Assembly (NCBI RefSeq): GCF_033568475.1
Contig: NC_133122.1
Span: 149,496,861-149,560,860, forward strand
Direction: 5' to 3'
Length of the DNA stretch: 64,000 nt
DNA from: Henckelia pumila
Lineage: Eukaryota; Streptophyta; Magnoliopsida; Lamiales; Gesneriaceae
Under the pieces are notes generated by a model, which saw only the letters and a list, made by a program, of their open reading frames with translations, ran no database searches and was not told the DNA's origin. The position numbers and the translations under genes are program-made. Position 1 is the stretch's first letter. The number at the start of each line of letters is the position of its first letter. Shown in pieces: positions 20,801 through 56,800 of the stretch.

Positions 20801-21936
20801 TGTGTTTGCTGAAAAAATCACTCTATGGTCTAAAGCAGTCACCGAGGCAATGGTACAAACGTTTTGATGACTTCATGCTACAGAAAAAATATTGTAGATC
20901 AAAGTTTGACAGCTGTGTGTATTACAGAAAGTTGCCAAACCAGTCTTTCATCTACTTGTTGATCTAAGTTGATGACATGCTCATTGCTTGTAAAGATCTT
21001 ATGGAAATTCAGAATTTAAAGCATCAACTAAACTTTGAATTTGATATGAAAGATCTTGGTACAGCCAAACAAATATTAGGGGTTGAGATAAGAAGGGATA
21101 TAAAGCTGAGAACTTTGGCTTTGTCACAAGAGAAGTACATAAATAAAGTTTTAAATATCTTCAAAATGGAAGAAGCTAAATCAGTTAGCACACTCATTGG
21201 TGCTCATTTTAAATTGAAAGCAGTAGATGGAGGATCAAGAAGAGTTAGAGGCTATTCATATGAAGAACATTCCATACTCAAATACAGTAGGAAGTATCAT
21301 GTACATGATGATTTCAACTCGACCAGATATTACCTATGGTTTGGGTCTTGTAAACAGGTTCATGAGCAAACCAAGCAAAGAGCATTGGAAGGCAGTACAA
21401 TGGTTGTTGAGATACTTAAACGGAACTTCCAAGCTAAAGCTAAAGTACTCCAAATCCACTTCAAACACATGTGAGATCACTGGTTATTATGACTCTGACT
21501 ACGCAGCTGATTTAGATAAGAGAAGATCGATTTCAAGATATGTGTTTACTGTTGGAGGAAATGTGGTGAGCTGGAAATCAAACTTGCAAAGTATGGTTGC
21601 ATTATCCACCATTGAAGCAGAGTATATTAGGCTAACTGAAGCAATAAAGGAAGGACTTTGGATCTCTGGATTTGTTTCTGAACTGGGATTTGAACAGAAG
21701 GATATCACAGTATTTTGTGATTCATACAGTGCAATACACTTGTCCAAGAATTTTGTTTTCACGAAAGGACAAAACATATAGATGTAAGGTTGCATTTTGT
21801 GAGAGACATCATATCTAGAGGTTTGATAAAAGTTCAGAAGATTGATACTATGACAAATCCAGCAGATATGTTGACAAAGGTGATACCTATGAGGAAACTC
21901 AATAAAGCATTGAGCATGCTCAAGATGGTGGAGTAA
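17885..21936 (+). pseudogene. Broken copia gag-pol polyprotein
   Basis: Gag starts at the ATG at 17885 (KFDGKNDFNLW...). It carries a CCHC knuckle, CWSCKKEGHIRRFC, at about 18598-18640. Protease has DSGCTYHM at about 18769. Integrase has the HHCC-type start (WHQRLGHMS) and IDDYSRKIW with later Asp and Glu of the catalytic triad. Reverse transcriptase has KWIFKKKSG...YKARLVAKGF and SLYGLKQSPRQW. RNase H has YYDSDYAADLDKRRS and STIEAEY. Breaks: frameshifts near 18128, 21225 and 21770; stops at about 18322, 18427, 18760, 19378, 19852, 20078, 20467 and 20965. The last stop falls exactly where the tyrosine of the YVDD catalytic motif is expected. Two TGA stops stand where tryptophan is usual. The element cannot be autonomous. 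Confidence 0.9.
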
Positions 21937-30295: not shown

Positions 30296-31187
30296 CACAC
30301 ACACATATATATATATATATAATAAAATATATATGAGTGATATATATTGACTTGATATATTGACGTAGTTTTAAAAATTTATTAACACGAATATATATAT
30401 ATTATATAAATATATAAATAGTGATACTATATAAAATTAAATATAATCAAATTTTATAGAGTTATATTAATTTCTTAACTACAATAAATTTAATACTACT
30501 TATTGATTTTTGTAAATTAAATTGATAAGTAAAAATTATTTATATGATAGATAAAAATATTTTAAAGAAAAATAATTATTTTAAAGAAATATAAACATAA
30601 GTTATTGACAATTGATTAATAATTCGAATAAATAAATAAAAATAAAAATCATGAATTATAAAACTCATATGGTCTACAAAAAAGTTTACAAATGTCAATA
30701 AAAGTCATGAAAAACAAATCTGCAAGATTCTGTGAAAGTCATTAAAAGTTTGTGAGATTCTATAAAAGTCTGTAGAAATCTATCAACTCCACCTGTCATT
30801 TATAAAAATTCAGTAAATCTCTGCACGAATACACCCTTAAACGTATTCCATATCACCTTTATATATATATGCCAAGTAATTTGGTCTTTATATATTTCAG
30901 ATCTAATTGTAAAAAATCGACCAAAAGACATGAAGTTTAAACTCATCCGACGGGTGCCAAGATGGATGTACTAGTTTTAATTTTATTCATAAAAGTTATT
31001 ATGAGCTTTATGCGTACTGCATGAATACATCATAATTAATGCAAATTGCTCAAAAATTTCCAATACAAACATGTTTTGCTCTGCACTTTCTAGCCACTTT
31101 TTTGTACCACAATTTTTGTTAATTTGTATAACATCTTGTATGATTTTGTACCACATATTGTATTGTTTTGTATCACATTTTATGACT
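30296..31187. other. AT-rich spacer
   Basis: It contains (CA)n/(TA)n at 30293-30325. About 30670-30835 has repeated 'aaaagtctgtgagattctataaaagtc' phrases ending in GAATACACCC, which may be a MITE fragment. 31080-31180 has three variants of 'ttttgtaccacatattgtat'. No gene. Confidence 0.4.
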
Positions 31188-31192
31188 AAGGA

Positions 31193-33846
31193 TGAAACGA
31201 CCCTAACTCTCTAATAAATAAATATGCGGAAATTTTTTTTTTTTTTATACTACTAAATAAAATATGTACATATATGCCCATACATATATGCACAGAATAA
31301 AATAATTAAAATAAATACACGACTAAATAAATAAACAATTTAAATACTTAAATAAAATGCATTCTTTGAAATAATTAAACATCTGAGTCAACCCTAGAAT
31401 TAAAAATATACTGCATAAATAAAATAAATAAAAATGTGCATGCACTAAAAATATTTAATAAAATATCCAAAAACATCAACCCTTAAAAATATTCCAAATG
31501 TATCATATGACATCATGTACGGTGACTCAGAGGCTGTCACGGTCACGGGGCTACTGCAGCACTGCTCATACATCCTCACCACCGGTAGGAGTAACCTGCT
31601 CCTCTACGTACTCACCTGCACCATATCAGTGTAGTGAGCCTAGAGGCCCAACATGCATACTAACAAGGGTTTAAAATAATTTAAATCAATTTAATACTAA
31701 TACATACATATACATGAATGAGCATGCTTAAAAATTACATAACGTAAATTACATAAATAAACATACATAACATACATAATATCATACATACATAAGTTGT
31801 TGAGCATTTATTTTCTGAACATCGAGTGGTCCTATCCGTAAGTGTGACCCATAGTGCGACTGATCAGTCTAAGAAACCATCGTACGAGGCTGGTGGCGAA
31901 CCACCCATACATAAATGGCAGAAAACTGCCCATACATAAATGGCAGAAACTGCTCATACATAAATGGCCACACTACTTCAATTTCCACCTAAAATATTTT
32001 ATTTGCTCAACCATAGAAATTAAATCATAGCGTAAAAATTGATTTCATGAATGCATGTACTTAAATAAATTGTGTGTCCTTCATATATATTTAATTTAAT
32101 TTTCTTACTAACATATAAATATTAAAATAACTTAAATGCATAAAAATAATTAAATATATAATCAGGACACATGCAATTTTCTCATGGATGGTTCTGGACT
32201 GATGGCCCTACACTCAAGCCCATTAACTTAAGACTTGGCCCATAAATCAAATCAAGCCCAATAAGACTAATTTAGGCCCAATAACACTGTCCCTGGCCCA
32301 ATGGGCACAATAGCCCAATAACAGGCCCAATAACTTTCATGGGCTCCCAAGCCCATAAAAATTTCTGGCCAACTTAGAAATTTAAATAAAAATTATTAAA
32401 AGCCCAAAAATAAATAAAATAACCCAAAATAATTTAATGGACCCTAAATAAATTAAATGATACTAATTAAATTTTTGAGAATTTAATTAGCCCATTTAAT
32501 TCCTAATTAACTTAAAAACTTAAAAATAAAAATACCCGAGCCCAATTAAAATAACCCGGACCGGACCCACTTAACTTAACCCATATTATTTTAGACCCGA
32601 CCCGGACCCAAGACCCGACCCGGAACCCACTAGAAACCCTAACCCGAAACCCTAGCCTAGCTTACCTTTCTCGGCCGCCGAAGGGCTTGTGCAGCAGGCC
32701 TTCCCGAGCTCCGGCCGCCGTGGCCGGAGCCCCGCCGGCAGGACCTCCCCAGGGTCCTGCCGGTTCGAACCATACCAAGGTCCCAACCCCATGCTTACCC
32801 TACATCGAACCGAAGCCCCTCAAACCCAAAACCCTAACTGCTACTCGGCCGAACCCTTTGCTGAACAAGGTGACCACCTGGGCTCGTTTGGCTCGAACCA
32901 CTCGAGCCACTCGAGCCCAGACCACGTTCCCACACTCCCGGAGACCTAGCCATCAGCCGAACCATGCATGGATAGGAAGAAGACGTGAACATGCTATGAA
33001 ATTCGAAGGCAATGCACCAACAACAAACTTCAAACGATTTTCTGAAAAGTTTCTAAAAGAATTTCCATGCCTACCTTAACCTACATAATATATACTGATA
33101 TGATGTTAAAAACAAGAAGAAAATCATGCCTTTCACCGTAAGTATGGATTTGACACGCGTAGGAAGGACTCCGGGACGACGGGACGACTTCGGCTTGCTT
33201 GGAACCTTGAAAACCGACCTCCTATGGTGTTTTAGGGCTGAAGACCGATTGGAGAAGATGATGAATGGTTGGGGTGGGTGTCGGCTGATGGAGGAGGAGA
33301 GGCGTAGGGTTTGATAGTTTAGGTTTAGCTTTTTAGGTTAATTAGAATTTAATTAGGATAATAACTTAATTAGGATTATATTATACCATAAAACACTTAT
33401 TTAAAAAAATCCTTAATAACAAAAGTAATCTGATGGGAAAATTAAATCCCGAAATATTAGAGTAGGGAAATTTTAAAAATACTAAAAAGTCAATATTTTG
33501 ACTAATTTTGGATAAAAATGACCCCTAAAATTAAATAAAATTAAATACTTAAAATTTTGAGATAATAAAACTCAAAATAATATTTTAAGGCTCCAAAAAG
33601 GCTCATAAAATAATTTGGGTGGAAAGTTGTCATCTCGTCCGTCCACGGTCCCGTCTACGCGATTAAACAATAAAAATACTAAAAAAAATCATAAAAATCA
33701 CTAATTATGGGTTAAATGCTTAAAAATAAATTAAATCATGCATAAATAATTCACATAATTATTTAACCCATAAATCATAAATTTAAATAATTAATTATCC
33801 TAATTATGCAGGCGGATTTATGTAATTAAAAATACCGGGTGTTACA
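31193..33846 (-). repeat. 3' LTR (left) of the Tekay-like element
   Basis: 2654 bp. It contains a GC-rich part (about 32640-33000) whose reading frames are also present in the other LTR and are not genes. The region with many GGCCCA/AGCCCA words lies at 32200-32420. Confidence 0.95.
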
Positions 33847-33862
33847 ATTCTCCCCCCCTTAA
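33847..33862 (-). other. Polypurine tract of the Tekay-like element
   Basis: AAGGGGGGGAGAAT on the minus strand directly adjoins the 3' LTR. Confidence 0.9.
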
Positions 33863-33891
33863 ATTGAATTTCGTCCTCGAAATTAAAGTAC

Positions 33892-36800
33892 TTACCCGAA
33901 CAACTTCGGATAGCGAGTCCTCATATCCTCCTCGGTCTCCCAAGTAGCTTCCTCCTCCGAGTGATTCAGCCACTGGACTCTGACCATCGGTATGACCCGC
34001 GTCCTAAGCCTCCGCTCCTCTCTAGCCAAGATCCGCACTGGTCTCTCCTCGTAAACAAGATCTGGTGGCAACTGTAAGGGCTCAAAATCCAATACATGCG
34101 ACGGATTGGAGACATATCTCCGAAGCATGGATACATGGAAAACGTTGTGCACTGCCGCTAGCCCTGGAGGTAGAGCTAAACGATAGGCCAACGTGCCAAC
34201 TCGCTCCAAGATCTCGAATGGCCCTATGTATCTCGGATTAAGCTTGCCTCTCCGCCCAAAACGCGCTACTCCCTTCATAGGTGACACCTTCAAGAATACG
34301 TGATCACCTACCGCGAACTCCAAATCGCGCCGTCTGGCATCCGCATAACTCTTCTGCCGACTCTGCGCAGTCCTCATCCTCTCTCGAATCTGCGTCACGA
34401 TGTCAGCTCTCTGCTGCACAATCTCTGGACCCAACAAAATCCGCTCACCAACCTCATCCCAATGCACAGGAGATCTGCATCTCCTCCCATACAGTGCTGC
34501 ATATGGAGCCATACCTATAGATGACTGAAAGCTGTTGTTATAGGTAAACTCCATTAATGGCAGTCTAGTCTCCCAAGATCCTCGAAAATCGATGACACAA
34601 GCTCTCAGAAGATCCTCGAAAACCTGGATCACTCTCTCAGACTGATCATCTGTCTGGGGATGAAATGTTGTACTGAACAAAAGTCTAGTCCCCAAAGCTG
34701 TGTGCAGACTCTTTCAAAACGCTGAGGTGAACCTCGGATCCCTGTCTGACACGATAGACACTGGTATGCCATGCAGTCTAACAATCTCTCTGACGTAAAG
34801 CTCTGCATACTGTGTCAAAGTGTAAGTAGTTCTTACCGGCAAGAAATGAGCTGACTTGGTGAGTCTATCCACAATCACCCAAATCGCTGTACACCCTCTG
34901 GTACTCCTCGGTAAGCCAACCACAAAGTCCATCGTAATATTCTCCCACTTTCATTCCGGAATAGGGAGAGGTCTAAGAAGTCCTGCTGGACGCTGATGCT
35001 CTGCTTTGACCTGCTGACAAGTCAAGCACTCTGACACCACTCTCCCGATGTCACTCTTCATCCCGGGCCACCAATACAATAACTGTAAGTCTCGGTACAT
35101 CTTCGTACTTCCGGGGTGAATGGAGTACGGAGATGCATGAGCCTCTGCTAGAATCTCGGCTCTCAACTGACCAACGTTCGGTACCCACATCCTCCCACGG
35201 TACTGAACGATGCCATCCTCCAGTGTATACAAGAGATTACCTCTGGCCTCATCTCTCTGTCTCCATCGCTGTAGCTCCTCATCAGTGGACTGTCCCTCTC
35301 TAATCCGATCTCTCAACACTGGCTGCACCGTCAACACTGACAAACTCGGTGCATGGCCACTCGGATAGCACTCCAAACCAAATCTCTGAATCTCGGTCTG
35401 TAGTGGTAACTGTACAGTCAAACATGATACCACTGACGACTTTCGACTCAAAGCATCTGCCACTACATTAGCCTTACCCGGATGGTAGCTAATGTCACAA
35501 TCATAATCCTTAACAAGCTCAAGCCATCTGCGCTGCCTCATGTTCAACTCCTTCTGGGTGAAGAAGTACTTGAGGCTCTTGTGGTCGGTGAAAATCTTGC
35601 ACTTCTCGCCGTAAAGATAGTGCCTCCAGATTTTCAACGCGAATACCACTGCTGCAAGCTCCAAATCATGCGTCGGATAGTTCTGCTCATGAATCTTCAA
35701 CTGTCGCGACGCATATGCGATAACTCTGCCACACTGCATAAGTACTGCGCCCAACCCAAGTTTGGACGCGTCGGTGTACACCACTAACTCCTCATGTGGC
35801 ACTGTCATAGCTAACACAGGTGCTGAAGTAAGTGCATCCTTCAGCTGATCAAAGCTCCTCTGACAATCTGGACTCCAACTATACTTCGCGTTCTTCTTGG
35901 TTAAGGAAGTCAAGGGTACTGCAATAGAGGAAAAACCCTTGATGAACTTCCTATAGTATCCTGCTAAACCCAAGAAGCTACGAATCTCCGAAGCATTCTT
36001 TGGAATCCCCCAATCCCTCACTGCCTGCACCTTGGACTGATCCACTGCAATCCTATCTCTAGAAATAATGTGGCCTAGAAACGCCACCTGCTCCAACCAA
36101 AACTCACACTTACTGAACTTTGCAAACAGTCGATGCTCTCTCAAAGTCTGCAAGGCTGTATGCAAGTGCTGTGTATGCTCCTCAATGCTCCTCGAGTAGA
36201 TCAATATGTCATCAATGAATACAATGACAAACTGATCTAGATACGGCTGGAAAACACGATGCATGAGATCCATAAAAACTGCTGGAGCATTGGTCAACCC
36301 AAAGGGCATCACCAAAAACTCATAGTGCCCATACCGTGTCCTAAAGGCAGTCTTAGACACGTCTGAATCTCTGACTCTCAGCTGATGGTAACCAGATCGC
36401 AGATCGATCTTGGAGAATACCGAAGCTCCCTGCAACTGATCGAATAAATCCTCTATCCTCGGTAGTGGATACTTATTCTTCACTGTGACTCTGTTGAGCT
36501 CTCGGTAGTCAATGCACAATCTCATGCTGCCGTCCTTCTTCTTCACAAACAACACTGGAGCTCCCCATGGAGAAAAGCTAGGACGAACAAAGCCCTTCTC
36601 CAACAGCTCCTGAATCTGCTCCTTCAACTCTCTCATCTCTGTAGGAGCAAGTCGATACGGTGCCTTAGAGATAGGCACAGTATCCGGCAACAACTCAATA
36701 CTGAACTCCACCTCCCTCACTGGTGGAACTCCTGCAACATCGTCAGGAAAAACATCTGGATAGTCACGTACCACCTCTATATCTGATAACGATCTGCTAG

Positions 36801-37265
36801 AAACATCTGAGGTAGTGACCACACTAGCCAGAAAACCCTGACATCCACTGCGCAACAGTTTCCTCGCACGGACAAGTGATATCATCTGAGGAATACTGCT
36901 AGACTGAGATGCAAAGAAAGTAAACATCTCACCTCCTGCTGGCTTCACTGATACTGTCCTACGTCGGAAATCAATCGAAGCTCCATTAACTGATAGCCAG
37001 TCCATACCCAAAATCAAGTCAAACCCAGTCAATGGAAGAACCACTAGATCTGCTCGAATGGAGTGTCCCTGCAACTCCAATGCCAGATCCCTGATGACAC
37101 TAGTGGTAGTGATAATCTGTCCGGATGGCATGGTAACATCGTAACCACTGTCTACAACCTCCGGTGAAATGCCTATCCGTCTGATAAAATCTCGGGAGAT
37201 AAACGAATGCGTGGCTCCTGAATCTAGCAACGCAAACGTGGAGTTGCTTCCAACTAGAATTCTCC
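33892..37265 (-). pseudogene. Tekay-like pol exon (protease-RT-RNase H-integrase-chromodomain) with two stops
   Basis: One frame runs from the intron acceptor at 37265 to the TAG/TGA-type end at 33892. Protease has [11 protein letters not shown]. Reverse transcriptase has [29 protein letters not shown] and the FIDDILIYS catalytic motif. RNase H has [14 protein letters not shown] and TDHKSLKYF. Integrase has the HHCC finger ([11 protein letters not shown]...WWPGMK...CLTCQQ), D in [12 protein letters not shown] in SDRDPRF and E in QSERVIQVFEDLLR. The C-terminal part resembles a chromodomain (VRVQWLNHSEEEATWE...YPKLF). Two TGA stops break it, at 34951-34953 and 34714-34716, both in integrase and both where a tryptophan codon is usual. 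The three open stretches share one frame. Confidence 0.9.
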
Positions 37266-37461
37266 CTGCACGCAGAAGATTCCCAACAATTCACACCACT
37301 ATGCTCCCAAGGTTAAAACACTAAAATCCTTAATTCTAATCACAAAGAAACAAAATTCCTAGTCTAGCATGCTGATAATTAAACTCATGAAACATGCATT
37401 CAGATATGATTGCAATTAAACAAAAGCAAAGTATTGAAAAAGTTCTAGGGGTTAGGTATAC
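37266..37461 (-). other. Putative intron between gag and protease
   Basis: On the minus strand the donor is ACCG|GTATACC and the acceptor CTTCTGCGTGCAG|GGAGAATT. The 196 bases between contain several stops and no gag or pol residues. Gag and pol are in different frames (codon phase 2 versus 1). Removing 196 bases (one more than a multiple of three) brings them into one frame and gives the family-typical transition DTSLITG to RILVGSNS before LDSGATHS. Confidence 0.75.
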
Positions 37462-38497
37462 CGGTGATCAAGGAGGTATCTGGGTCTGCCTCCTCTGCCT
37501 GCATCACATATACTCGCCCACTGACATTCTGCCTCTGCGGGCAGTTGGCAATCTGATGCCCTGGCTCCTTTCAGCGATAGCAGACTCCTGCTCCCAATAG
37601 ACACTGCCCGGAATGCATCTTCTGGCACTTCGGACACACTGGATATCTCCCTGGAGTAGGGGCCCCGCCCCTAGTCTGCTGCTGTGGCTTCCCCTGAGGC
37701 CTCTGCTGATTCGGGCCCTTAGATGGCCCTGTAGACTGCTTCTTCGCAGGTGGCTGCGAAGATGGTCGCTGATACCCTGTCTGCACAAACTGCCTCTTAC
37801 CTTGCTGCTCTCTCTGTATCTCCCTCCGTCCCTCCTCGGAACGCAAGGCCCTGCTGACTGCAGACTCATAGGTAAAGAAGTCTGCCATACGTACGTCATG
37901 TCTAATCTCAGCCCTCAGGCCCTCAACAAACTGTCGCAGCTTCTCCTGCGGACTATCAGCAATCATGGGCACAAAATGACAGCTCCTCTCATACTGGCTC
38001 ACATACTCAACCACAGCTCTGTCCCCCTGACGGAGACTCATGAACTCTCGGATCATGCGACTGCGCACGTCCTCAGTGAAATACTTGGCGTAGAAGATAC
38101 GCCTGAACTCAGCCCACGTCAGTGTAGGTAGATGGACTCCTCGAACTGCACCCTCCCACCATAGGGCTGCATCGCCTCGCATCATGTATGTAGCACAGCT
38201 CACCCTGTCGGCGTCTGTGATCCCCATATAGTCGAAGATGGACTCAAGAGAGCGAATCCATCCCTCAGCCACCAACGGATCGGTGGTCCCCAAAAACTCC
38301 TTAGGCCCCTTCTTCTGGAACCTCTCTGCGACGTCCTCCTCGTGGGACAGTCTGGGACGGGCAGCCTGCTGCTCCAGCAAGGCAGTAATACCCGCCATCA
38401 TCGTGGCACTGGCCTGCTCCAGTGCTGTCATGGGGTGCTGCTGAGGTGGCGGTGGAGGTGGAGGTCTCCCACGTCGGTTCACTTGTCTGGGAGGCAT
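37462..38497 (-). pseudogene. Tekay-like gag exon with a stop in the zinc knuckle
   Basis: It begins MPPRQVNRRGRPPPPPPP, with the ATG only two bases after a strong splice acceptor. The retrotransposon gag core follows: FLGTTDPLVAEGWIRSLE, YMMRGDAALWWEGA, FRRIFYAKYF, EFMSLRQGDRAVVEYVSQYE. Then comes a Gln/Pro/Lys-rich linker and a first Cys pair (CPKCQKMHSGQC). A TGA at 37571-37573 sits where the second cysteine of the CCHC knuckle is expected. The frame is open again afterwards (KEPGHQIANC) up to the intron donor at 37462. Confidence 0.85.
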
Positions 38498-38498
38498 T

Positions 38499-38610
38499 CT
38501 GCACCACCACATATTTATTTACGTAAATCGCCATGCATAACTAAGTGTTTAAAATTAAGGCTAACTTTAAATTCTAGAAATTAAATCATACTATAAACAT
38601 TAAAACTTAC
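38499..38610 (-). other. Putative leader intron of the Tekay-like element
   Basis: On the minus strand CCGGTCT|GTAAGTTTTA is a consensus donor and TATGTGGTGGTGCAG|AATGCC an acceptor placed directly before the gag ATG. The intron would be 112 bp, about 60 bases downstream of the primer-binding site. Confidence 0.6.
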
Positions 38611-38668
38611 AGACCGGTAGCGTGGATTTCTGAGCTTGCATAGCAGTAGTGACCCCTCCAAGGACCGC

Positions 38669-38680
38669 GCTCTGATACCA
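38669..38680 (-). other. Primer-binding site (initiator tRNA-Met)
   Basis: TGGTATCAGAGC on the minus strand, two bases inside the 5' LTR; an exact match to the common plant retrotransposon site. Confidence 0.95.
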
Positions 38681-38682
38681 AC

Positions 38683-41349
38683 TGAAACGACCCTAACTCT
38701 CTAATAAATAAATATGCGGAAATTTTTTTTTTTTTTATACTACTAAATAAAATATGTACATATATGCCCATACATATATGCACAGAATAAAATAATTAAA
38801 ATAAATACACGACTAAATAAATAAACAATTTAAATACTTAAATAAAATGCATTCTTTGAAATAATTAAACATCTGAGTCAACCCTAGAATTAAAAATATA
38901 CTGCATAAATAAAATAAATAAAAATGTGCATGCACTAAAAATATTTAATAAAATATCCAAAAACATCAACCCTTAAAAATATTCCAAATGTATCATATGA
39001 CATCATGTACGGTGACTCAGAGGCTGTCACGGTCACGGGGCTACTGCAGCACTGCTCATACATCCTCACCACCGGTAGGAGTAACCTGCTCCTCTACGTA
39101 CTCACCTGCACCATATCAGTGTAGTGAGCCTAGAGGCCCAACATGCATACTAACAAGGGTTTAAAATAATTTAAATCAATTTAATACTAATACATACATA
39201 TACATGAATGAGCATGCTTAAAAATTACATAACGTAAATTACATAAATAAACATACATAACATACATAATATCATACATACATAAGTTGTTGAGCATTTA
39301 TTTTCTGAACATCGAGTGGTCCTATCCGTAAGTGTGACCCATAGTGCGACTGATCAGTCTAAGAAACCATCGTACGAGGCTGGTGGCGAACCACCCATAC
39401 ATAAATGGCAGAAAACTGCCCATACATAAATGGCAGAAACTGCCCATACATAAATGGCCACACTACTTCAATTTCCACCTAAAATATTTTATTTGCTCAA
39501 CCATAGAAATTAAATCATAGCGTAAAAATTGATTTCATGAATGCATGTACTTAAATAAATTGTGTGTCCTTCATATATTTAATTTAATTTTCTTACTAAC
39601 ATATAAATATTAAAATAACTTAAATGCATAAAAATAATTAAATATATAATCAGGACACATGCAATTTTCTCATGGATGGTTCTGGACTGATGGCCCTACA
39701 CTCAAGCCCATTAACTTAAGACTTGGCCCATAAATCAAATCAAGCCCAATAAGACTAATTTAGGCCCAATAACACTGTCCCTGGCCCAATGGGCACAATA
39801 GCCCAATAACAGGCCCAATAACTTTCATGGGCTCCCAAGCCCATAAAAATTTCTGGCCAACTTAGAAATTTAAATAAAAATTATTAAAAGCCCAAAAATA
39901 AATAAAATAACCCAAAATAATTTAATGGACCCTAAATAAATTAAATGATACTAATTAAATTTTTGAGAATTTAATTAGCCCATTTAATTCCTAATTAACT
40001 TAAAAACTTAAAAATAAAAATACCCGAGCCCAATTAAAATAACCCGGACCCGGACCCACTTAACTTAACCCATATTATTTTAGACCCGACCCGGACCCAA
40101 GACCCGACCCGGAACCCACTAGAAACCCTAACCCGAAACCCTAGCCTAGCTTACCTTTCTCGGCCGCCGAAGGGCTTGTGCAGCAGGCCTTCCCGGCCTG
40201 CTGCAGCCCAGCTCCGGCCGCCGTGGCCGGAGCCCCGCCGGCAGGACCTCCCCAGGGTCCTGCCGGTTCGAACCATACCAAGGTCCCAACCCCATGCTTA
40301 CCCTACATCGAACCGAAGCCCCTCAAACCCAAAACCCTAACTGCTACTCGGCCGAACCCTTTGCTGAACAAGGTGACCACCTGGGCTCGTTTGGCTCGAA
40401 CCACTCGAGCCACTCGAGCCCAGACCACGTTCCCACACTCCCGGAGACCTAGCCATCAGCCGAACCATGCATGGATAGGAAGAAGACGTGAACATGCTAT
40501 GAAATTCGAAGGCAATGCACCAACAACAAACTTCAAACGATTTTCTGAAAAGTTTCTAAAAGAATTTCCATGCCTACCTTAACCTACATAATATATACTG
40601 ATATGATGTTAAAAACAAGAAGAAAATCATGCCTTTCACCGTAAGTATGGATTTGACACGCGTAGGAAGGACTCCGGGACGACGGGACGACTTCGGCTTG
40701 CTTGGAACCTTGAAAACCGACCTCCTATGGTGTTTTAGGGCTGAAGACCGATTGGAGAAGATGATGAATGGTTGGGGTGGGTGTCGGCTGATGGAGGAGG
40801 AGAGGCGTAGGGTTTGATAGTTTAGGTTTAGCTTTTTAGGTTAATTAGAATTTAATTAGGATAATAACTTAATTAGGATTATATTATACCATAAAACACT
40901 TATTTAAAAAAATCCTTAATAACAAAAGTAATCTGATGGGAAAATTAAATCCCGAAATATTAGAGTAGGGAAATTTTAAAAATACTAAAAAGTCAATATT
41001 TTGACTAATTTTGGATAAAAATGACCCCTAAAATTAAATAAAATTAAATACTTAAAATTTTGAGATAATAAAACTCAAAATAATATTTTAAGGCTCCAAA
41101 AAGGCTCATAAAATAATTTGGGTGGAAAGTTGTCATCTCGTCCGTCCACGGTCCCGTCTACGCGATTAAACAATAAAAATACTAAAAAAAATCATAAAAA
41201 TCACTAATTATGGGTTAAATGCTTAAAAATAAATTAAATCATGCATAAATAATTCACATAATTATTTAACCCATAAATCATAAATTTAAATAATTAATTA
41301 TCCTAATTATGCAGGCGGATTTATGTAATTAAAAATACCGGGTGTTACA
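38683..41349 (-). repeat. 5' LTR (right) of the Tekay-like element
   Basis: 2667 bp, 13 bp longer than the other LTR. The largest difference is a 14-bp insertion near 40195 (GCCTGCTGCAGCCC) that extends a GC-rich hairpin with the preceding GCAGCAGGCC. Confidence 0.95.
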
Positions 41350-41354
41350 AAGGA

Positions 41355-43352
41355 CCCCAAAGCAAAATATGTTTGCATTTGGGGATTTTTGAGCAAATTG
41401 CCCCATAATTAACACCTAACACGTACCCTCGAGACATCTGAAGAAGTGGAGTAGGTGAACGGTTGGTCTATGATCATGAGCTCGATCCTTCATAACCACA
41501 TTTCTTATGACGAGTCTGTTGCATAAGCTCTTTTCAGTGCGATTTACTTGACTAGCGTAATTTGCAGGTTATCATATGGATCCAAGAGTTTACCCAGACT
41601 CTCCGCACATACAACACACCAAAAGATATGTAACAGTTACATATCCATAATCAAAATAATAATATTAATACTACTACTACTACTACTACTACTACTAATA
41701 ATAATAATAATAATAATAATATTGTCGCTCGTACACATCCCTCGATTTAACCCCGCATAAGTTAATGAGCCTTTGACTTATATGATAAATAACCCTTAAT
41801 AAGCACATACTTCCAGACTCTCAGTCAAAATAACTTTACTTTGTTTTGTTTTGTTTTTAATCTATGTAACTATGAAGGTATATATTGGTCTCCTTCGTTG
41901 GCAATTATCTCATTCATAAAAATAAATTTATTTCATCTTTTGTTTATCTGGGTGTGGTAATTAGAGTTTAGGGACTAATTTTTCATTTTTGTACATAATT
42001 GGAACACTTCAAAACTGTAAAATTATAATTGATGATAATATTGCAACTAATAAATTAATTTTAAACCATAAAAACAACACAAGTATTATGTTTCGACCAC
42101 TATACCGTTAATAACCATCGTTGCTTCCCAAGTTCCCAACATATCTAAATTTTAACTCACGTTTAAACTTGTATTGATAATATATATAGTGTGGGATGAT
42201 TTCTACCAAATAATACATACATAGCAGATAAAATGAGGGGCTAACAACGCACTAAAAATATAATTAATTACTAATTAAAAAAATAGAATTCAGACATTGT
42301 TGGCCAACTAGATTATTCCGTAACGGAGGTGGTCTTTTTTTTGGACGAGATTAAGAGATGGTGTTTTTAATTAATATTGTTCTAAGTGTGCATAAAATAT
42401 TTGATTATACATAAGTTAAATCAGTGGTTGAGATGTCGTGAAACACGTTAAAACACGATTTAAATGATACTTTTATTTAATGAATGTGAAATCATTTAAT
42501 GAACACATGGTCACATATTATTCATCCAATACTCCTTGGATGGACATTGCTGAAAATATACAACCCATCCAAATCTTTTGGTCACCCATAAAATCTTTTG
42601 GCTCCTCTTGTTTTATTCTTTGTTTTAATTTTCTGTCTTGACCTAACTCAACTCAAAAGTTAGCTTAAAAAGAGAATTGTCCAAGATCATATATTAAATT
42701 TTCAAAAATTCTATCCAATCGATATGAGATATGTCTTAACATTGTCGATATCCTAAATGTTAGACGAAAATTTCGGTTGAAATTGGGTAGTATTCAAAAG
42801 TTCGGATTCATTTGGAGTCATGAAGTCTAAAACATGTTTAATCAACAACTATAACTGGTAATATTAAACCATTCATTCATGTATTCATGTTTTAGAGGAT
42901 TTATTTGGTTCGTTTTTTAGCAAGTTACCTGGTGTAATCAATATATCTGAAAAATGTGTACCGGTGACACATAATTTAATCTCAAAACCATTCATCAAGG
43001 ATAATGTGCGATAAAAGGATGGTTTTGAAATTAAACTCTTCTTGGGTTCGAATTTTAGCAAATAACCTACCATAATCAAGATGAGGAGGAGGATGCTATT
43101 ACGGATCTATGATCTTGAAATGGTCGATCGAATCGTCTATATTCGGAGCGGAAACTAATATTGTTACCCAAAATATGTATACAGAGTTTGAAGCTAATGT
43201 TACAAAACATGATTAGTACTGTACTTGTTATTATCGGCGCCTATTTCATCGAAAGTATACAAAAGCACAGTCCCCTGTCGGGCATTTCTAGGACCCGTTT
43301 CATTCAAATTTGTGGGAAATTCGATCAGTATAATTTCAATTAACCAAAACCC
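41355..43352. other. Intergenic; microsatellite and SINE fragment
   Basis: 41672-41720 is (ACT)n followed by (AAT)n. 41722-41790 resembles part of the SINE at 23.1 kb: 'gtcgctc(g/a)tacacatccctcgatttaaccccgcat' matches, followed by diverged sequence. The remainder is AT-rich without gene features; 43100-43352 is probably the promoter and leader of the next gene. Confidence 0.55.
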
Positions 43353-46300
43353 ATGAACTCGAAGCTCATCCTAATTGCTGTAGCGTTGCCACTGCTCGCG
43401 GTGGCGATTACCTTCGCCAACACCGGCTTGTTCACGCCGCTGCCAATTCGGGGGTCGCACGACGTCCTCAGCCAGGCGGATAGGATCCACTTCGCCGGAG
43501 CAGTGGGGCCGGAGAGCTTGGTCTTTGATTCCAGCGGCGGAGGCCCTTACACTGGCGTTGCCGATGGCCGAATTCTCAGGTGGGACGGCGGAGATTGGGT
43601 TGAATTCGCTACTACCTCATCTAAAAGGTAATTAAAACACTCCCCGCCACCTCTACTATGTGTTTATGCGTGTTTTTTTAACTGGGTTTTTGTGTAGATA
43701 GCTTTCGTTTCTACGTTTGTGAGCAAAAATGCACGACCTAAAGTCGGACGATTGGCGGAGGAAATTTGGTTAGAGAGAAAGTGAAACCCGATTGAATTTT
43801 ATCTTATGCTCCATTCTAGTCTCAGTTGTTAGTACTGTATGATTGTGGCACTTGTAAACGCCTTAACTATTCTTCGGTTATTGCATAAGATAGCTAGTGC
43901 TCATCCCATAACGGCCACCGAAATCCGCGTAGATCCTATATATGCTTCAAACTTTTGGCGTTGGAGAAAACTTACTCAACCTCGACTTTATTTCATTCCA
44001 TTATGAATTGGGCTACAATTTGGCGCTTGTTATCCTGTTTCATTACTACTTTTGGAATTTATGTAAGAAGAAAGATTCTAACTTGCATTTCTGCATTGCC
44101 ATTTGAGATATAGTAAGTGCATTAGCTATTTTTTACCATAATTTCAGTCTCATTTGAGCTGACAAGAACCAGGTTTTTGCCTATCCTTGGGCTAGTGGGA
44201 GCATTGTTTTTGCATTTGGTTGTAGAATGTAGGACTAATTGGCCTTTCTCGATCTTTGATGTTTCTCTAGGTGGAAAAAGTGCCGCTTGGTTTAGATATG
44301 TTATGAGTCCGTCATTGTTCCATGATCAATGATTGAATTGATACTTAAGGTTTGGATGTTTTGTGACATCATAAATATTAAATTAATCTCCTGAGTTGAG
44401 CTATCTCGCTACTGATGCTTTTACTAAGAGTTGGTGCAGCAGTCAAAACTATTTTAGAAAGATTCACGTATATCGAATATGTTTAGGAATGTGGTTGCTT
44501 GAAGTATGTGCTTAGTATAGAAATAGGTGGCAAACTCACGGTGGCCATGGGTATTGGCTCCTGGTAAGGCAGATAATATTAAACATGCACATTGGCTCCA
44601 TAAATAATTCTATTATACTACTCAAACTTTGCAAGTTCTTAAATCTAGTAGAGTAGTTGTTCAGATCAAACTCTCACGTGAACCCTAAATTCGAACAATA
44701 TGGAGACACATTGATGTGCTGACCCTGAAAAACAAGATTCATCCTTCATGGCTTTTTTATCAGAACCACAATGTTTAGGTTGCATCAATCCGATCTTGAA
44801 TGTTGAGGCTAGCCTTGTCTTCTTAGTGTCAAATGTCAATAGTGTGGAACATGCTCACATTACAGGCTATTAAGTGCATCTGTCAAATACAAAAGTGTAA
44901 GGAAGGCATATATATTATGTCGTTGATGTCAACTTCTCAAATGTTAGAAACTATTATATTTGTCTTTTGGGTTGAACTTTTTTGTGAAGCTTATGTTTGA
45001 ATAATATGGAGATGTCATAGTGCGGTTTTCTAAATATCATGATTGATCCTCTGTGTTTTACTGATCAAAACTCAGTTGATTAGGGTCTCTGTTCCAGAAT
45101 ATTGAAACCCTCATACTGTTTATTATTGCATTGGTAACATGTAGAAGATTGTTTAGACGATGGCAATTCCGAATTTGGGTTTTTATTATCCGGAGCGACA
45201 CAAGTATTTTATGCTGAAATGTATTTCTGTATTTCTATTAGTAAATTTCATCTGAAAAGCAGATCTCTTTGCCTGTACTGAAGGGAGAAATGTTCTCAAC
45301 CATTCAATCCAGCAATGGAGAACATCTGTGGCAGACCATTGGGACTGCGGTTTCATGCAAAAACTGGAGATCTTTATATTGCAGATGCTTACTTGGGACT
45401 CCAAGTGGTTGGGCCAAATGGAGGAATGGCTTCGCCGCTAGTAACAGAAGTAGAGGGCCAGCCTTTACGCTTCACCAATGACATGGATATTGATGAGGAT
45501 CAAGATGTGATTTACTTTACAGATACTAGCACGGTATTCTACAGAAGGTATTTGGTTATAAAACTCTAAATTATTTGCTTATAATATGTTTAAGAAATGA
45601 CCCTTTTCTTTTGTAACACGAGATTATGATTAGACGGCCTGAAGTAGTGATATGGATTGACATTGGATAATGACTAGGGTAGTCTTTCTCGATCCAAAAT
45701 CGTACAAGTGTTGTTTTGAAAATTAATAGGAATAAATGCCATGTCGTCCTATTAGTCTGTTTTCTAATGAGGGCAGAAAAGGGGGAGTTCATATGGTTCA
45801 TGCGAATTTTTTCTTTTTTTTCCACTTGGTTTTCGATGCATATAGATAGGGATCGCCTTCAGGATGGTTCCAGCAGGCCCAATTTTATTGGATCTGCCCT
45901 AACTCATGGTATTCGAAGGAATTTAACAAGCCTTTTGTGTTTCATGTAAGGCAATTCATACCATCAATCTTGACCCAAGACAAGACCGGCAAGCTGATGA
46001 AGTACAATATATCAAGCAAAGAAGTCACAGTTTTACTTCGAGGCCTTGCTTTTGCCAATGGCGTGGCCCTGAGTAAAGACCGTTCTTTCCTCTTAGTAGC
46101 TGAAACAACAACATGCAGAATACTGAGATTCTGGCTTCATGGCCCTGATGCCGGAAAACATGAAACTTTTGCGGAACTCCCAGGTTTTCCAGACAATGTA
46201 AGAAGAAACTCGATGGGTGAGTTTTGGGTTGCTCTCCACTCAAAAACTGGACTTCTTTCTAAATGGGCAATTTCTTATTCGTGGTTCGGAAATACGCTTC

Positions 46301-46518
46301 TGAAACTCCCCCTCACGTTCAAGCAATTACACTACTTGTTAGTTGGAGGCAAGCCTCACGCTGTTGCAGTAAAGTTAAGTAACGAAGGAGACGTTCTGTG
46401 CATTTTAGAAGACACTAAAGGGGAGACATTGAAGTTTATCAGTGAAGTAGAGGAGAAGAATGGTAAGTTATGGATCGGTTCTGTGCTTATGCCATACATT
46501 GGGATCTATACCTTGTGA
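43353..46518 (+). CDS. Strictosidine-synthase-like protein (SSL), copy 1
   Basis: The exons are 43353-43627, 45284-45547 and 45951-46518. They total 1107 nt, giving 368 residues plus TGA. Both introns are phase 2. The N-terminus (MNSKLILIAVALPLLAVAI) is a signal peptide or signal anchor, so the protein should enter the secretory pathway. The six-bladed propeller family is evident from GAVGPESLVFD, GPYTGVADGRILRW, CGRPLGLRFHAKTGDLYIADAYLGL, VIYFTDTSTVF, KTGKLMKYN, FANGVALSKD, ETTTCRILRFWL, FPDNVRRN and GKLWIGSV. In true strictosidine synthase a Glu in a GEHFE segment near the C-terminus is catalytic. Here the aligned segment reads GETLKF, with Lys at that place, so Pictet-Spengler activity is unlikely. 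Its own reaction is unknown; it is paralogous to the gene at 48040. Confidence 0.93.
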
Positions 46519-48039: not shown

Positions 48040-51000
48040 ATGGCCAGAATCCCACCAAGTTATTTAACCAAACGTCCAATGACCAGCTTAAAGCTCCATT
48101 CAATTGCAACGGGGATTGTTTTCGTAGCAACCCTTTTAGTGACATTCGACAATGTTAAGATTTGGAGCAAAAGTTCACTGATCAAGAATACTGTGTCGCC
48201 GGGATATAATATTGATGGATTTGTTCCGGATTACGAGCTGATAGGGCTACCCGGCGGAGCCGTCGGGCCGGAGAGCTTCGCGTTCGACGCCGACGGCAGC
48301 GGCCCCTACACCGGCGTGTCGGACGGGAGGATCATCCGGTGGCAAGCAAACGAAAGCCGATGGGTGGATTTCGCGGTGACTTCTCCCGACAGGTATGAGT
48401 AATTAATGTAATATTATTATGTGATCATGATATGTTAATGTCCCATACGTGTTGTACGTGTTGTATGGTCATGAGTTTTGCATTTCTTGAAGATTTAGTA
48501 TATATATATATATATATATATATACGTGCAAGTTGATTGATTCATTGGCGTATGCAATGTGCTTTCGGATGAGTCAAGACAAGAGGCATATATATAGAAT
48601 TAATCTACATGTTTGATACATTTTCATAATTATAGTTAGAAAATGGTATGAGCGTGAAAAACAAAACATAGATAGTGGAGAGCAGCAGTCCATTGTATGT
48701 CTTGTGATAGAAAAAACAAATTAACAACGTTAAGGAGCTAGGAGAAGTGGGCATTCTAGCTCGATCGAATCCATTTATATATCGAATTCAGTTTTTTTTG
48801 TAAGGATTTCATGTGTTATAAATTATAATATGGTGAAAGAAATAAAGATGCAATCACCAGTATATATGATAAATTCAAAATTTGTACAAGCATTATGAGT
48901 TAACTTCGAAACTATTTGGTGCAGAGAAATCAGCTAGCATATCAGAAAAACAGATCTTTCTTATTGAAAAAGCTAGCTGCATGAAAACGAAATTAGATAG
49001 GCATATAATAATAACTATTATAATAATAATTATAATAATAATAATAATAAAAAACAAGACAATCTTATAGTCAATTTTGTGAAAATGTTCCATCTCACCA
49101 ATGAAAAAATATTACTTTTATGTCAAAACTATTATTTTTCATTGTGAAAATGAGCTAAGTTGATTCGGCTCACAGATATGACCGTGTCATAGCCGACTCA
49201 TAGGAGACCTGCTATCATTTATAATATATATGTATGTATGGGAATTGTTGCATTAATAAAGGATAGGAACTTTATTAATTCTCTTAACAATTATGAGGTG
49301 ATTGGGATTTTCAAAGTTCTAGTTGTGATATATATGTCACTAATTAAGATTTAGCATTTGGTTTCTTGTTGGAAGTCGAATGGCAAAAATCCATTATTAA
49401 AATGTGTTAAAAGTTACAACATAATATATATATATTATTTTAATTTTTTGGCAAAACAAAAAACAGAAAGATATTTTTAGGAACTCCTTTTCATTACCCT
49501 CCCAATTTGGCCCATCTCACGTCTATTCTTGTGAATGAGGTTAGGGCCACATTCTAAAGTTCTTTCAACAATTTACAATATGATAATCAGGACAAGATCG
49601 GACAAGATCACAGCTTGGAAATTATTTTTAAAAAATAAACTTAAATTTCATTTAATTTTACATACATAGTAATTTATATCTAAAATTTTATAACTATCGG
49701 CCACTGTTTGTAGAACTATATACTATATTTCTAATAATATTATTTATTATAATCTATTGATTAATCATCCCTATATTAAAAATCCGACGAGTTAATATAT
49801 GATATGCGTATATTATTATCCCCATGTTAAAAATCGGACGAGTTAACATATGATATGTGCATCTTGTTGTCTGACGATAACTAAACAATACACCAATTTT
49901 GCCTCATAAATTCTAATATATGATCTTTTCAACCCCTATGCATAATTTAATTGTTTTATTTTATTTTATTTAGATTAAACCTAGTTTATAAAATGTCCAC
50001 AATAATTAATAGATATGGATGCGAAGGGCCAAAGGATCACTCGCTGATGGAGCATATTTGTGGGAGGCCATTGGGCCTTCGGTTCAACGAACAAACAGGC
50101 CATCTCTACATAGCCGATGCTTATATGGGCCTAATTGAAGTGGGCCCAAATGGTGGGCTTGGCACCCCAATTGCAAAACAAGTGGATGGAGTAGATTTTG
50201 GGTTCACAAATTCATTGGACATTGATCAGAGTAATGGGCTTGTGTATTTTACAGACAGCAGCACACGTTTTCCACGAAGGTAAGATGGGAACAAAATATC
50301 ATAAATATTTAATCTATACAAATATAATTCGATGAGATCCAATTTTAATCTTCAATTATTTTATCTCATATTTATATATATTTTTGAGTAACTATAAGAG
50401 AGATGCGAGTTCCGACCCATATTTATATTGAAAAGTAATACTTTTATAAATCGGATCGAATAAAAGATCTGTCACACAAAATTGATTCATAAGATCGTAG
50501 TACAAGAGTTTTGTGTATTTGTAGCATGAAATAGTGTAGGATTCATTCCATATAATTATTTTTATTACTTTTTAAAATATGTATTAATGTAAACTTAATT
50601 TTCCGCACACCACATCTATAGGGACCATATTCCCGTGCTTTTAAGTGGTGACAAGTCGGGGAGATTGATGAAATTTGATCCCAAAACCAAGGAAACGACC
50701 GTCCTTTTGAGCAATCTCATGTTTCCAAATGGAGTTGCATTGAGCAAAAACGGAGATTTCCTACTCTTCGTAGAGACGACTACTTGTAAATTATTCAAGC
50801 TTTGGCTAAAAACGCAAAAATCCGGTATTCTTGAAGTCTTGACTCAGTTCTCCGGATTCCCGGATAACATCAAAAGGAACAAGAAAGGCGGATTTTGGGT
50901 CGGAATCAATTCACGAAGAACTAAATTCTTGGATTTTGTTATATCAAATCCTTGGATTGGAAACCTCCTAGTCGATTTTTCCGTGGATTTGACAAAATTA

Positions 51001-51225
51001 CACGTGCGCCTGGCTCGGTTTATAAGGAGCCCGGGAATGGGAATTAGGTTGGATGAAAATGGGAATGTGATGGAGGTACTTGATGGAACGATGGGAAGCA
51101 AATGGAAATTTGTAAGTGAAGTTGAGGAAGAACGTGGGAACTTGTGGATAGGATCGGTGACAAGGGCTTTTGTTGTTAAAGAAAAGACGTTGAGGGCTTC
51201 TACAGATCAATATGAAGTTTTTTAG
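48040..51225 (+). CDS. Strictosidine-synthase-like protein (SSL), copy 2
   Basis: The exons are 48040-48392, 50013-50279 and 50622-51225. They total 1224 nt, giving 407 residues plus TAG. Both introns are phase 2 at the same places as in copy 1, so the two are tandem duplicates. A signal anchor lies at about residues 20-37 (HSIATGIVFVATLLVTF), about 20 residues further in than in copy 1. Motifs are GAVGPESFAFD, GPYTGVSDGRIIRW, EHICGRPLGLRF, LYIADAYMGL, LVYFTDSSTRF, SGRLMKFDPKTKETTVLL, FPNGVALSKN, ETTTCKLFKLWL, FPDNIKRN and GNLWIGSV. As in copy 1 the position of the catalytic Glu of strictosidine synthase is Lys (SKWKFVSEVEEE). It is likely a secretory or ER/vacuolar protein; substrate unknown. 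Confidence 0.93.
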
Positions 51226-53884: not shown

Positions 53885-56800
53885 CATGAAAATTTGCATA
53901 CCAGATAGTGGTACATACAACGCACACTATTCTGCGAGATAAAAGATATTTCTTGGAAATAAAACCAACAAAAGAAATGGTGAATACCATATCAGGTCCT
54001 GTAGACTTGATTGAAGGTTGTGGTAAAGCACAATTTTTGTTACCAAATGGTACAAAATTTCTGATAAATGATGTTTTATATTCACCACAATCGAAAAAAA
54101 ATTTGTTGAGTTTTAATGACATATATTCTCATGGATATGATACTGAGACGATAACTGATGAAAATCAGAAATATATGTGTCTTACCACATATAAATCAGG
54201 AAAGAAATATGTGGTTGAAAAATTATCAATGCTCCCTACTGGATTGCATTATACACATATAAGGCCAATCAAATCAAATATGCTGGTTAATAGTTCTTCA
54301 ATATTAACCAATTGGCATGATCGATTGGGACATCCTGGTTCAATAATGATGCGAAGAATTATTGAAAATACGCATGGTCATCCATTGAAAGACCAGAAGA
54401 TCTTTCAGAATAATAAGTTTCAATGTAAAGCATGTTCTCTTGAAAAACTTATTATAAGACCATCGCCAGCTAAAATCCAAACAGAATCACCCATATTTCT
54501 TGAACGTATTCAGGGTGATATTTGTGGGCCAATTTATCCATCATGTGGACCATTTCGATATTTTATGGTATTGATTGATGTCTCCAGCAGATGGTCACAT
54601 GTATGCATATTGTCAACTCGAAATGTGGCATTTGCAAGACTAATGGCTCAAATAATAAAATTGCGGAATCAATTTTCCGATTATACAATCAAGAAAATAA
54701 GACTTGATAATGCTGGAGAATTTACTTCCCAAACTTTCAATGACTATTGTATGTCAATGGAAATTACTATTGAACATCATGTTGCTCATGTTCATACACA
54801 GAATGGATTAGCTAAATCATTGATTAAACGTCTACAACTGATTGCTAGACCAATGATTATGAGAACAAAACTCCCTATTTCTATATGGGGACATGCAATT
54901 TTACATGCTGCAGCATTAATTCGCATCAGACCAAGTGCATATCATAAATTCTCCCCATTGCAGCTTGCATTTGGTAAAGAACCAAATATTTCTCATTTGA
55001 GAATTTTTGGATGTACGGTGTATGTGCCTATTGCACCACCTCAACGATAAAAAATGGGTCCTCAAAGAAAAATCGGTATTTATATCGGTTATGATAGCCC
55101 ATCAATCATTCGATATCTTGAGCCTCAAACAGGCGATGTGTTTACAGCACGTTTTGCTGATTGTCATTTTAATGAAGAAATCTTCCCAATGTTAGGGGGA
55201 GAAAAGAAACACATCGAAAAAGAAATCACATGGTATGTACCATCATTGTTACATTTGGATCCAAGGACCAAACAATGTGAGAAAGATGTACAACAAATTG
55301 TACACTTGCAAAGAATTGCAAATCAAATGCCAGATGCATTTGCAGACACAAAAGGAGTAAAAAAATCATATATACACGCTGTAAATGCCCCTGCTCGAAT
55401 TGAAATTCCAAAGAAACAAATTGAAGACACTCATGATGTCATAAAACGCTTGAAGCGTGGAAGGCCAGTCGGTTCCAAGAATAAAAATCCTCGGAAAAGA
55501 AAAGGCATAGAGAAACACGATGATCATAAAATAGAAAATGGTGTTCCAGAAGAAACACCAGATGATGAAAATGTTCTGTCAGAACCACAAACTGACGAGA
55601 ATCGTGAAATCTCTATCAATTATATTAATACTGGAAAAATATGGAACCGAAAAGATATAGAAGATATTGATGAGATATTTTCTTATAATGTGGCATGTGA
55701 CATCATAAATGAAAACGAGGATCATGAACCAAAATCCTTTGGTGAATGTAAAACTCGTCATGATTGGGAAAAATGGAAAGATGTCATCCAGGTTGAATTG
55801 GATTCGCTAAATAAACGCAATGTTTCTGGACCTATAATCCTCACACCTGAAGGTGTAAAACCTGTTGGATACAAATGGATTTTTATTCGAAAGTGAAATG
55901 AGAAAAATGAAATAGTCAGATATAAAGCTAGACTTGTTGCACAAGGTTTTTCTCAAAGGCCTGGAATTGATTATGAAGAAATGTATTCTCCTGTTATGGA
56001 TGCAATTACGTTTCGATATTTGATTAGTTTGGCAGTCTCTGAAAATTTGGAAATGTGTCTTATGGATGTTGTTACAGCTTACTTATACGGATCACTTGAT
56101 AGTGATATATACATGAAAATTCCTGAAGAATTTAAGATGTCTGAAGCACAAAGTTCAAAACCCAGAGAATTTTATTCTGTAAAATTGCAAAGATCACTAT
56201 ATGGGTTAAAGCAATCCGGCCGAATGTGGTATAATCGGCTAAGTGAGCACTTGATGAAAAAGGGATATGTAAATGATCCAATATGCCCTTATGGTTTCAT
56301 CGAGAAAACAACATCCGGATGTGTAATTATTGCTGTATATGTTGATGATTTAAACATCATTGGAACGAATAAAAAAATTCAAGAAGTTATGATGTACTTG
56401 AAGGAAGAATTCGAAATGAAGAATCTTGGAAAAACCAAGTATTGTCTGGGTTTGCAAATCGAACAAAAAGAATGTGGAATTTTTATTCACCAGGAAAATT
56501 ATACATAAAAGATCCTTAAACGTTTTAATATAGATAAATCAAATCCATTAAGTACTCCAATGGTTGTAAGATCATTAAACATAGAAAAGGATCCATTCCG
56601 TTCATGTGGAGATGATGAAGTTATTCTTGGTCCAGAAGTACCATATCTAAGTGCCATTGGTGCCCTTATGTATCTTGCAAATTGCACTATACCTGATATA
56701 TCTTTTGCTGTAAATTTATTGGCAAGATTCAGTTCATATCCAATAAAGAGGCACTGGAACAGAATTAAACATATATTTCGTTATCTACGAGGAACAACAG

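Follow-up and report, generated by a model that had tools for sequence, protein, structure and literature searches.

A candidate alternatively spliced gag–protease intron in a chromovirus-like LTR retrotransposon of Henckelia pumila

Retroelements require Gag in excess of Pol, and the means by which plant Ty3/gypsy elements obtain this excess are, to our knowledge, poorly known. According to a 2025 review, as far as its text was available, the long terminal repeat (LTR) elements of plants are generally intron-free, Ogre and EVADE being the exceptions that it highlights (PMC12786077). The accessible parts of the literature describe the following cases. Ogre/Tat elements (Ty3/gypsy) carry a short intron between two open reading frames (ORFs), and its removal from some of the transcripts yields the full polyprotein (PMC6317226). 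In BARE1, a Ty1/copia element of barley, alternative splicing of a U-rich GT–AG intron near the gag/protease border alters Gag:Pol (PMC3735527), and EVADE (Ty1/copia, Arabidopsis) is reviewed as producing a short, subgenomic and spliced GAG RNA (PMC12786077). Bianca, also Ty1/copia, has two ORFs about 172 bp apart, an arrangement interpreted as a regulatory device (PMC6317226), and the CERV of Cer1 from C. elegans arises from a spliced mRNA that links exons of the gag region to a far exon (PMC10309623). Here we analyze a 196-nt segment that separates gag from protease in a chromovirus-like LTR retrotransposon from Henckelia pumila. The element lies on the minus strand, with LTRs at both ends, of a 64,000-nt stretch of contig NC_133122.1 (positions 149,496,861 to 149,560,860), referred to as the window, and all coordinates below are those of the window.

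On balance, we favour the reading that the segment is a spliceosomal intron whose donor acts as an alternative-splicing switch, such that three RNAs would set Gag:Pol. The unspliced genomic RNA would encode Gag plus five residues. Splicing to the near acceptor at 37266 would yield Gag-Pol, while splicing to an acceptor at 31616 in the 3' LTR, across an intron of 5,846 nt, would yield Gag with a short acidic tail encoded by the LTR. The Gag:Pol ratio would then be fixed by the choice among the three. If such a switch is true, LTR sequence would also be protein-coding, and a chromovirus splice switch with an LTR coding exon would add a further plant solution to the Gag:Pol problem.

The gag–protease intron and its use in related protein models

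The segment and the exons on either side are as follows.

37462 to 38497, minus strand: gag exon with PF03732/PF19259 and zinc knuckles, interrupted at 37573-37571 by an in-frame stop
37461 to 37266, minus strand: gag–protease intron, 196 nt, running from the shared donor (5') to the proximal acceptor (3')
33892 to 37265, minus strand: protease–reverse transcriptase (RT)–RNase H–integrase–chromodomain exon, with in-frame stops at 34953 and 34716

The GT–AG ends sit exactly between gag and protease: the upstream exon ends in ATCACCG (37462), the intron reads GTATACC...TGCGTGCAG, and the downstream exon starts with GGAGAATTC (37265). These ends, the U-richness relative to the flanking exons and the joining of the frames are those of a U2-type plant intron. 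The T content is 40.8%, and the adjoining stretches of 52 nt have 19.2% (upstream) and 26.9% (downstream); the GC content is 34.2%, compared to 53.8% and 48.1%, respectively. Stop codons are present in all three frames of the segment. Without splicing, the gag frame runs on for five extra residues (GIPNP) and ends at a TAG at 37447-37445. In the pol frame no Met occurs from the last stop of the intron to the protease motif LLDSGAT, so that separate initiation would not yield a whole protease.

A previous sequence-only reading of this DNA had proposed an intron of 196 bases at the gag–protease boundary which unites the two frames. Its coordinates hold to the nucleotide on the minus strand, and base composition and relatives agree with it. 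Candidate GT–AG pairs were scored with matrices of plant splice-site frequencies (donors 37565-37455, acceptors down to 37181, spacing at least 40 nt), and 37461/37266 obtained the top score among the 12 pairs that link the gag frame to the open protease frame. That reading had called the donor and acceptor clean. No AG from 37150 to 37461 scores higher than the acceptor, which ranks 17th of 502 AG from the donor to the element end; the donor scores weakly, at rank 56 among the 669 GT of the element.

Three protein searches retrieved 287 proteins: the best 120 of 7,979 in the first, all 85 in the second, and the best 120 of 390, 82 of them new, in the third. Of these, 169 were checked for the C-terminal anchor of gag, namely P0121-P0287 and, from Primulina, P0010 and P0038; the remaining 118 proteins of the best-120-of-7,979 list are excluded from this count. 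The anchor is present in 65 of the 169, which derive from Henckelia, Primulina, Zingiber and further contigs, and the Gag models of the three named genera break at one residue (...LIT/G).

A direct join from this junction to the protease is made by 22 of the 65 (21 by script, P0203 by eye), or by 20 of 63 once P0010 and P0038 are left out; the junction G itself is altered in a few of the 22. P0145, P0251 and P0271 reach the protease by a shifted join. The sequence-only reading found both coding ends to match the residues expected on each side, and in the relatives the passage into protease occurs at these positions: Henckelia pumila P0172 aligns with 37888-37460 (143 residues, 97% identical) and then with 37275-37042 (91%), the two stretches overlap by four residues at the junction, and the protein reads LITGRILV with nothing from the intron. 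P0156 and P0200 span the junction likewise.

Ten of the 65 continue for 3-13 residues past the junction and then stop, which looks as intron retention would give. Seven of them have G as junction residue, two have C and one has D, and in nine the first run-on residue is N, I or T, all with codons that start with A. Such residues would be expected here from a GTA donor following a GGT glycine, as far as a protein can tell; the model with D at the junction, P0189, does not agree with a GT at this place. In another 15 of the 65, a D/E-rich tail (D/E share of at least 20%) of 12-25 residues, counting from the G, is joined at the junction. Eight end short of it, P0143 perhaps by contig end, five show other joins, and P0124 and P0125 carry other tails. 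As a separate observation, a Primulina Gag group from three species (P0136, P0153, P0185, P0201, P0217), in which P0136 represents 26 sequences, ends in ...LH just short of the junction.

Sequence, exon ends, frames and the use of these joins by the relatives' database models are seen directly. Gene models constitute indirect evidence. The near intron is very likely real.

A possible far exon within the 3' LTR

The D/E-rich tails lead to a second partner of the shared donor.

31566 to 31615, minus strand: candidate distal exon, 3' LTR copy; it completes the junction G, encodes EYVEEQVTPTGGEDV and ends with TGA; its acceptor TGCAG ends at 31616
39056 to 39105, minus strand: the same sequence in the 5' LTR, starting at CAG/GTGAGT

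P0121, the closest relative, carries the tail GEYVEEQVTPTGGEDV, all 16 residues of which match the LTR translation at 31616-31569 and again at 39106-39059. The match is in the phase demanded by the gag donor, its first G is common with the gag side, and the LTR sequence directly upstream ends in TGCAG. P0122, P0123, P0127, and P0149, which represent further Henckelia clusters, match the same LTR site with 62-75% identity; the match is strong for P0121 (E 3e-5) and P0127 (8e-4).

Likeness among the tails themselves was assessed for 21 pairs, with the first residue removed and 1000 shuffles for each pair. Not one of 1000 shuffles reached the likeness of P0121 (Henckelia) to P0223 (Primulina tabacum), nor that of P0223 to P0144 (P. 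eburnea), and four further pairs were matched by 13-47 of 1000. At the level of sequence, these comparisons demonstrate an LTR origin of the tail for the Henckelia group only, and they make it likely in Primulina.

The distal join would excise 5,846 nt including all of pol, and would leave a Gag-only mRNA. Gag joined to the LTR exon, which would give Gag without Pol, is seen at the level of gene models, and we consider it rather probable that this far exon exists in a real RNA. Under the earlier proposal, only Gag would be made from unspliced RNA and Gag-Pol from spliced RNA, which agrees with the sequence; in some relatives Gag stops just past the donor. As a scheme for Gag:Pol it is plausible but incomplete, as it lacks the join to the LTR exon in annotated relatives as well as a predicted intron in the leader.

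Host element, leader and surroundings

The remaining features of the element are listed from left to right.

31188 to 31192, strand not applicable: target site duplication AAGGA, left
31193 to 33846, minus strand: 3' LTR, 2654 bp, TGTAACA...TTTCA
33847 to 33860, minus strand: polypurine tract AAGGGGGGGAGAAT adjoining the 3' LTR, found by sequence inspection
38499 to 38610, minus strand: predicted leader intron, GTAAGT...TGCAG, 112 nt
38669 to 38680, minus strand: primer binding site TGGTATCAGAGC, found by sequence inspection and presumably of the initiator-Met type
38683 to 41349, minus strand: 5' LTR, 2667 bp
41350 to 41354, strand not applicable: target site duplication AAGGA, right

The two LTRs are 99.3% identical over 2669 columns, and judged by this value the insertion appears to be recent, despite the in-frame stops. 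Gag contains one of these three stops and the integrase region the other two, so that the copy is not intact, though otherwise the element is complete; the stops had gone unmentioned in the sequence-only reading. At the position of the gag stop, related proteins read through. Searched as three separate pieces, the element gave the Pfam order PF03732/PF19259, RVP_2, RVT_1, RT_RNaseH, Integrase_H2C2 and SH3_Tf2-1, while the integrase core model had no match in the two pieces searched for it. The chromodomain PF00385 at the C-terminus of the integrase scores 25.6 bits, barely over the cut-off of 25.1. The domain order gag–protease–RT–RNase H–integrase is that of a Ty3/gypsy chromovirus, putatively Tekay-like, and the nearest Gag protein is from Henckelia pumila (Gesneriaceae), with 98%.

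No second copy was found within the window by blastn with LTR, intron, gag and protease–RT pieces, and none was confirmed among viral contigs or prokaryote genomes. An Rfam scan of 31000-41600 revealed no family over threshold.

The predicted leader intron has 26.8% GC and 41.1% T, and two Henckelia models pass over it. In P0125, residues encoded at 38660-38610 are followed directly by the gag start; in P0124 the corresponding join appears to use a donor 4 nt further upstream, and a possible alternative leader donor is located at 38614. These two models are labelled isoform X5 (P0125) and isoform X4 (P0124), and isoform labels of the NCBI pipeline normally derive from transcript evidence. Between the primer binding site and the gag ATG at 38497 there are six ATGs, five of them inside the predicted leader intron. 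One of the latter, at 38512, shares the gag frame and was taken by the ORF tool as the start of gag. The spliced leader (38682-38497, minus strand) would retain a 10-codon upstream ORF whose TAA overlaps the gag ATG (TAATG).

The CAG/GTGAGT at the start of the LTR exon occurs in both LTR copies, which hold ranks 4 and 5 of the 669 donor matches. The copy in the 5' LTR could be a donor for the leader. That one LTR site acts as acceptor in the 3' LTR and as donor in the 5' LTR is speculation. We also observed an AAG/GTAAGC donor at 40154 and 32665 (minus strand), one per LTR, with ranks 2 and 3 of 669. These sites lie upstream of CAG/GTGAGT, and the 5' leader may contain an additional intron.

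Elsewhere in the window, strictosidine synthase-like ORFs lie in tandem at 43353-46518 and 50635-51225 on the plus strand, and probably represent two genes or fragments. Pieces of Ty1/copia type (Pol_BBD, gag_pre-integrs, RVT_2, rve) extend over several ORFs at 18598-21474 and 53908-55050 (plus strand).

Competing explanations and comparison with known systems

Several observations weigh against a three-RNA switch. The shared donor is weak, which is a point against it in itself; a weak donor would also fit partial splicing, as would be needed if the unspliced RNA serves as genome. The protease-joined relatives are known as protein models, and their genomic DNA might lack the intron. P0226, P0281, and P0160 look like products of annotation stitching of the open pieces of dead elements, and since pipelines stitch in this way, repeated models need not mean transcripts. 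The LTR matches are weak for P0149 (E 0.02), P0123 (0.13) and P0122 (0.75), 10 of the 15 tails have no match in the LTR when compared with the window, and the Zingiber tails are not significantly like others, with no pair below 54 of 1000 shuffles. Finally, a sunflower survey, in the portion accessible, has no Tekay elements in its expressed set, by which the lineage may often be silent (PMC7730604).

In a rival reading the near intron alone is real, with unspliced RNA serving as Gag message and genome and spliced RNA giving Gag-Pol, and the LTR tails are recurring annotation artefacts of shared sequence. The near intron has the support of stops, composition and protein joins, whereas the LTR acceptor is unremarkable (rank 24 of 502 AG from the donor to the element end), most tails are unmatched and some models appear stitched from broken copies. 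Yet five Henckelia clusters use one LTR site, Primulina has similar tails, and the isoform-labelled P0124 ends in VQVSA, which by eye is the neighbouring frame of the same LTR site (tblastn gave no match). We regard this explanation as less likely than the switch, although it is the strongest of the rivals.

It is very improbable that the segment is a decayed spacer or an insertion of the family, such that Gag-Pol is not made and mobility depends on the Pol of relatives. A copy with three in-frame stops that inserted recently would suit this idea, but the intron ends are exact, the frame is restored, and the same boundary occurs in models of three genera. Slightly less credible still is that the relatives joined to protease come from genomic copies free of the intron, with the segment being a private insertion of some copies. 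The distant relatives P0048, P0081, and P0094 do run continuously from gag to protease, in records taken as unspliced, from which the intron may have been gained in one lineage. However, the run-on Gag ends coincide in Henckelia, Primulina, and Zingiber, which places the segment in all three. Production of Gag-Pol by recoding or re-initiation instead of splicing, common as recoding is among other retroelements, is scarcely conceivable here: all three frames are stopped, for which reason recoding was dropped, no Met precedes the protease motif, and protease-joined homologues hold no residues from the segment.

Returning to the three-RNA switch, we infer that actual RNAs stand behind the models, that not all transcripts are spliced and that the role of splicing is to set Gag:Pol. 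More tentatively, the arrangement may extend to a chromovirus lineage of Gesneriaceae and ginger. Such a lineage would possess one donor with two acceptors and a coding exon in the LTR, where CAG/GTGAGT would act as acceptor in the 3' LTR and, being close to the donor consensus, as donor in the 5' LTR. Splicing would apportion Gag, Gag-Pol and genome, and an acidic tail would mark the Gag-only product. This extension is possible rather than probable.

No prior report of such an intron in a plant chromovirus was found in the open-access literature, most subscription journals being outside the scope of the search. In the accessible portions of the sources, an obligatory gag–protease intron combined with an LTR coding exon is not described for Ogre, BARE1, EVADE or Cer1. 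Bianca belongs to the Copia superfamily, and the available text describes no splicing evidence for it (PMC6317226). EVADE is likewise a Copia element; its protease is spliced out with an early stop, and the part of the review at hand describes no LTR-encoded tail (PMC12786077). Cer1 CERV, as presented in the accessible text, comprises only some gag peptides with a large C-terminal half and a role in RNA export (PMC10309623), while the product predicted here is a whole Gag with a short tail. BARE1 follows the reverse logic, since its genomic ORF is continuous and splicing gives Gag only, via a shifted frame, according to the part of the source available (PMC3735527). Ogre resembles our element in being a plant Ty3/gypsy element with a partly spliced short intron between ORFs. 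It differs in being a non-chromovirus whose intron lies between GAG-PROT and RT and for which the accessible text describes no LTR exon (PMC6317226). In the Henckelia element, the intron precedes the protease, and protease–RT forms a single open frame.
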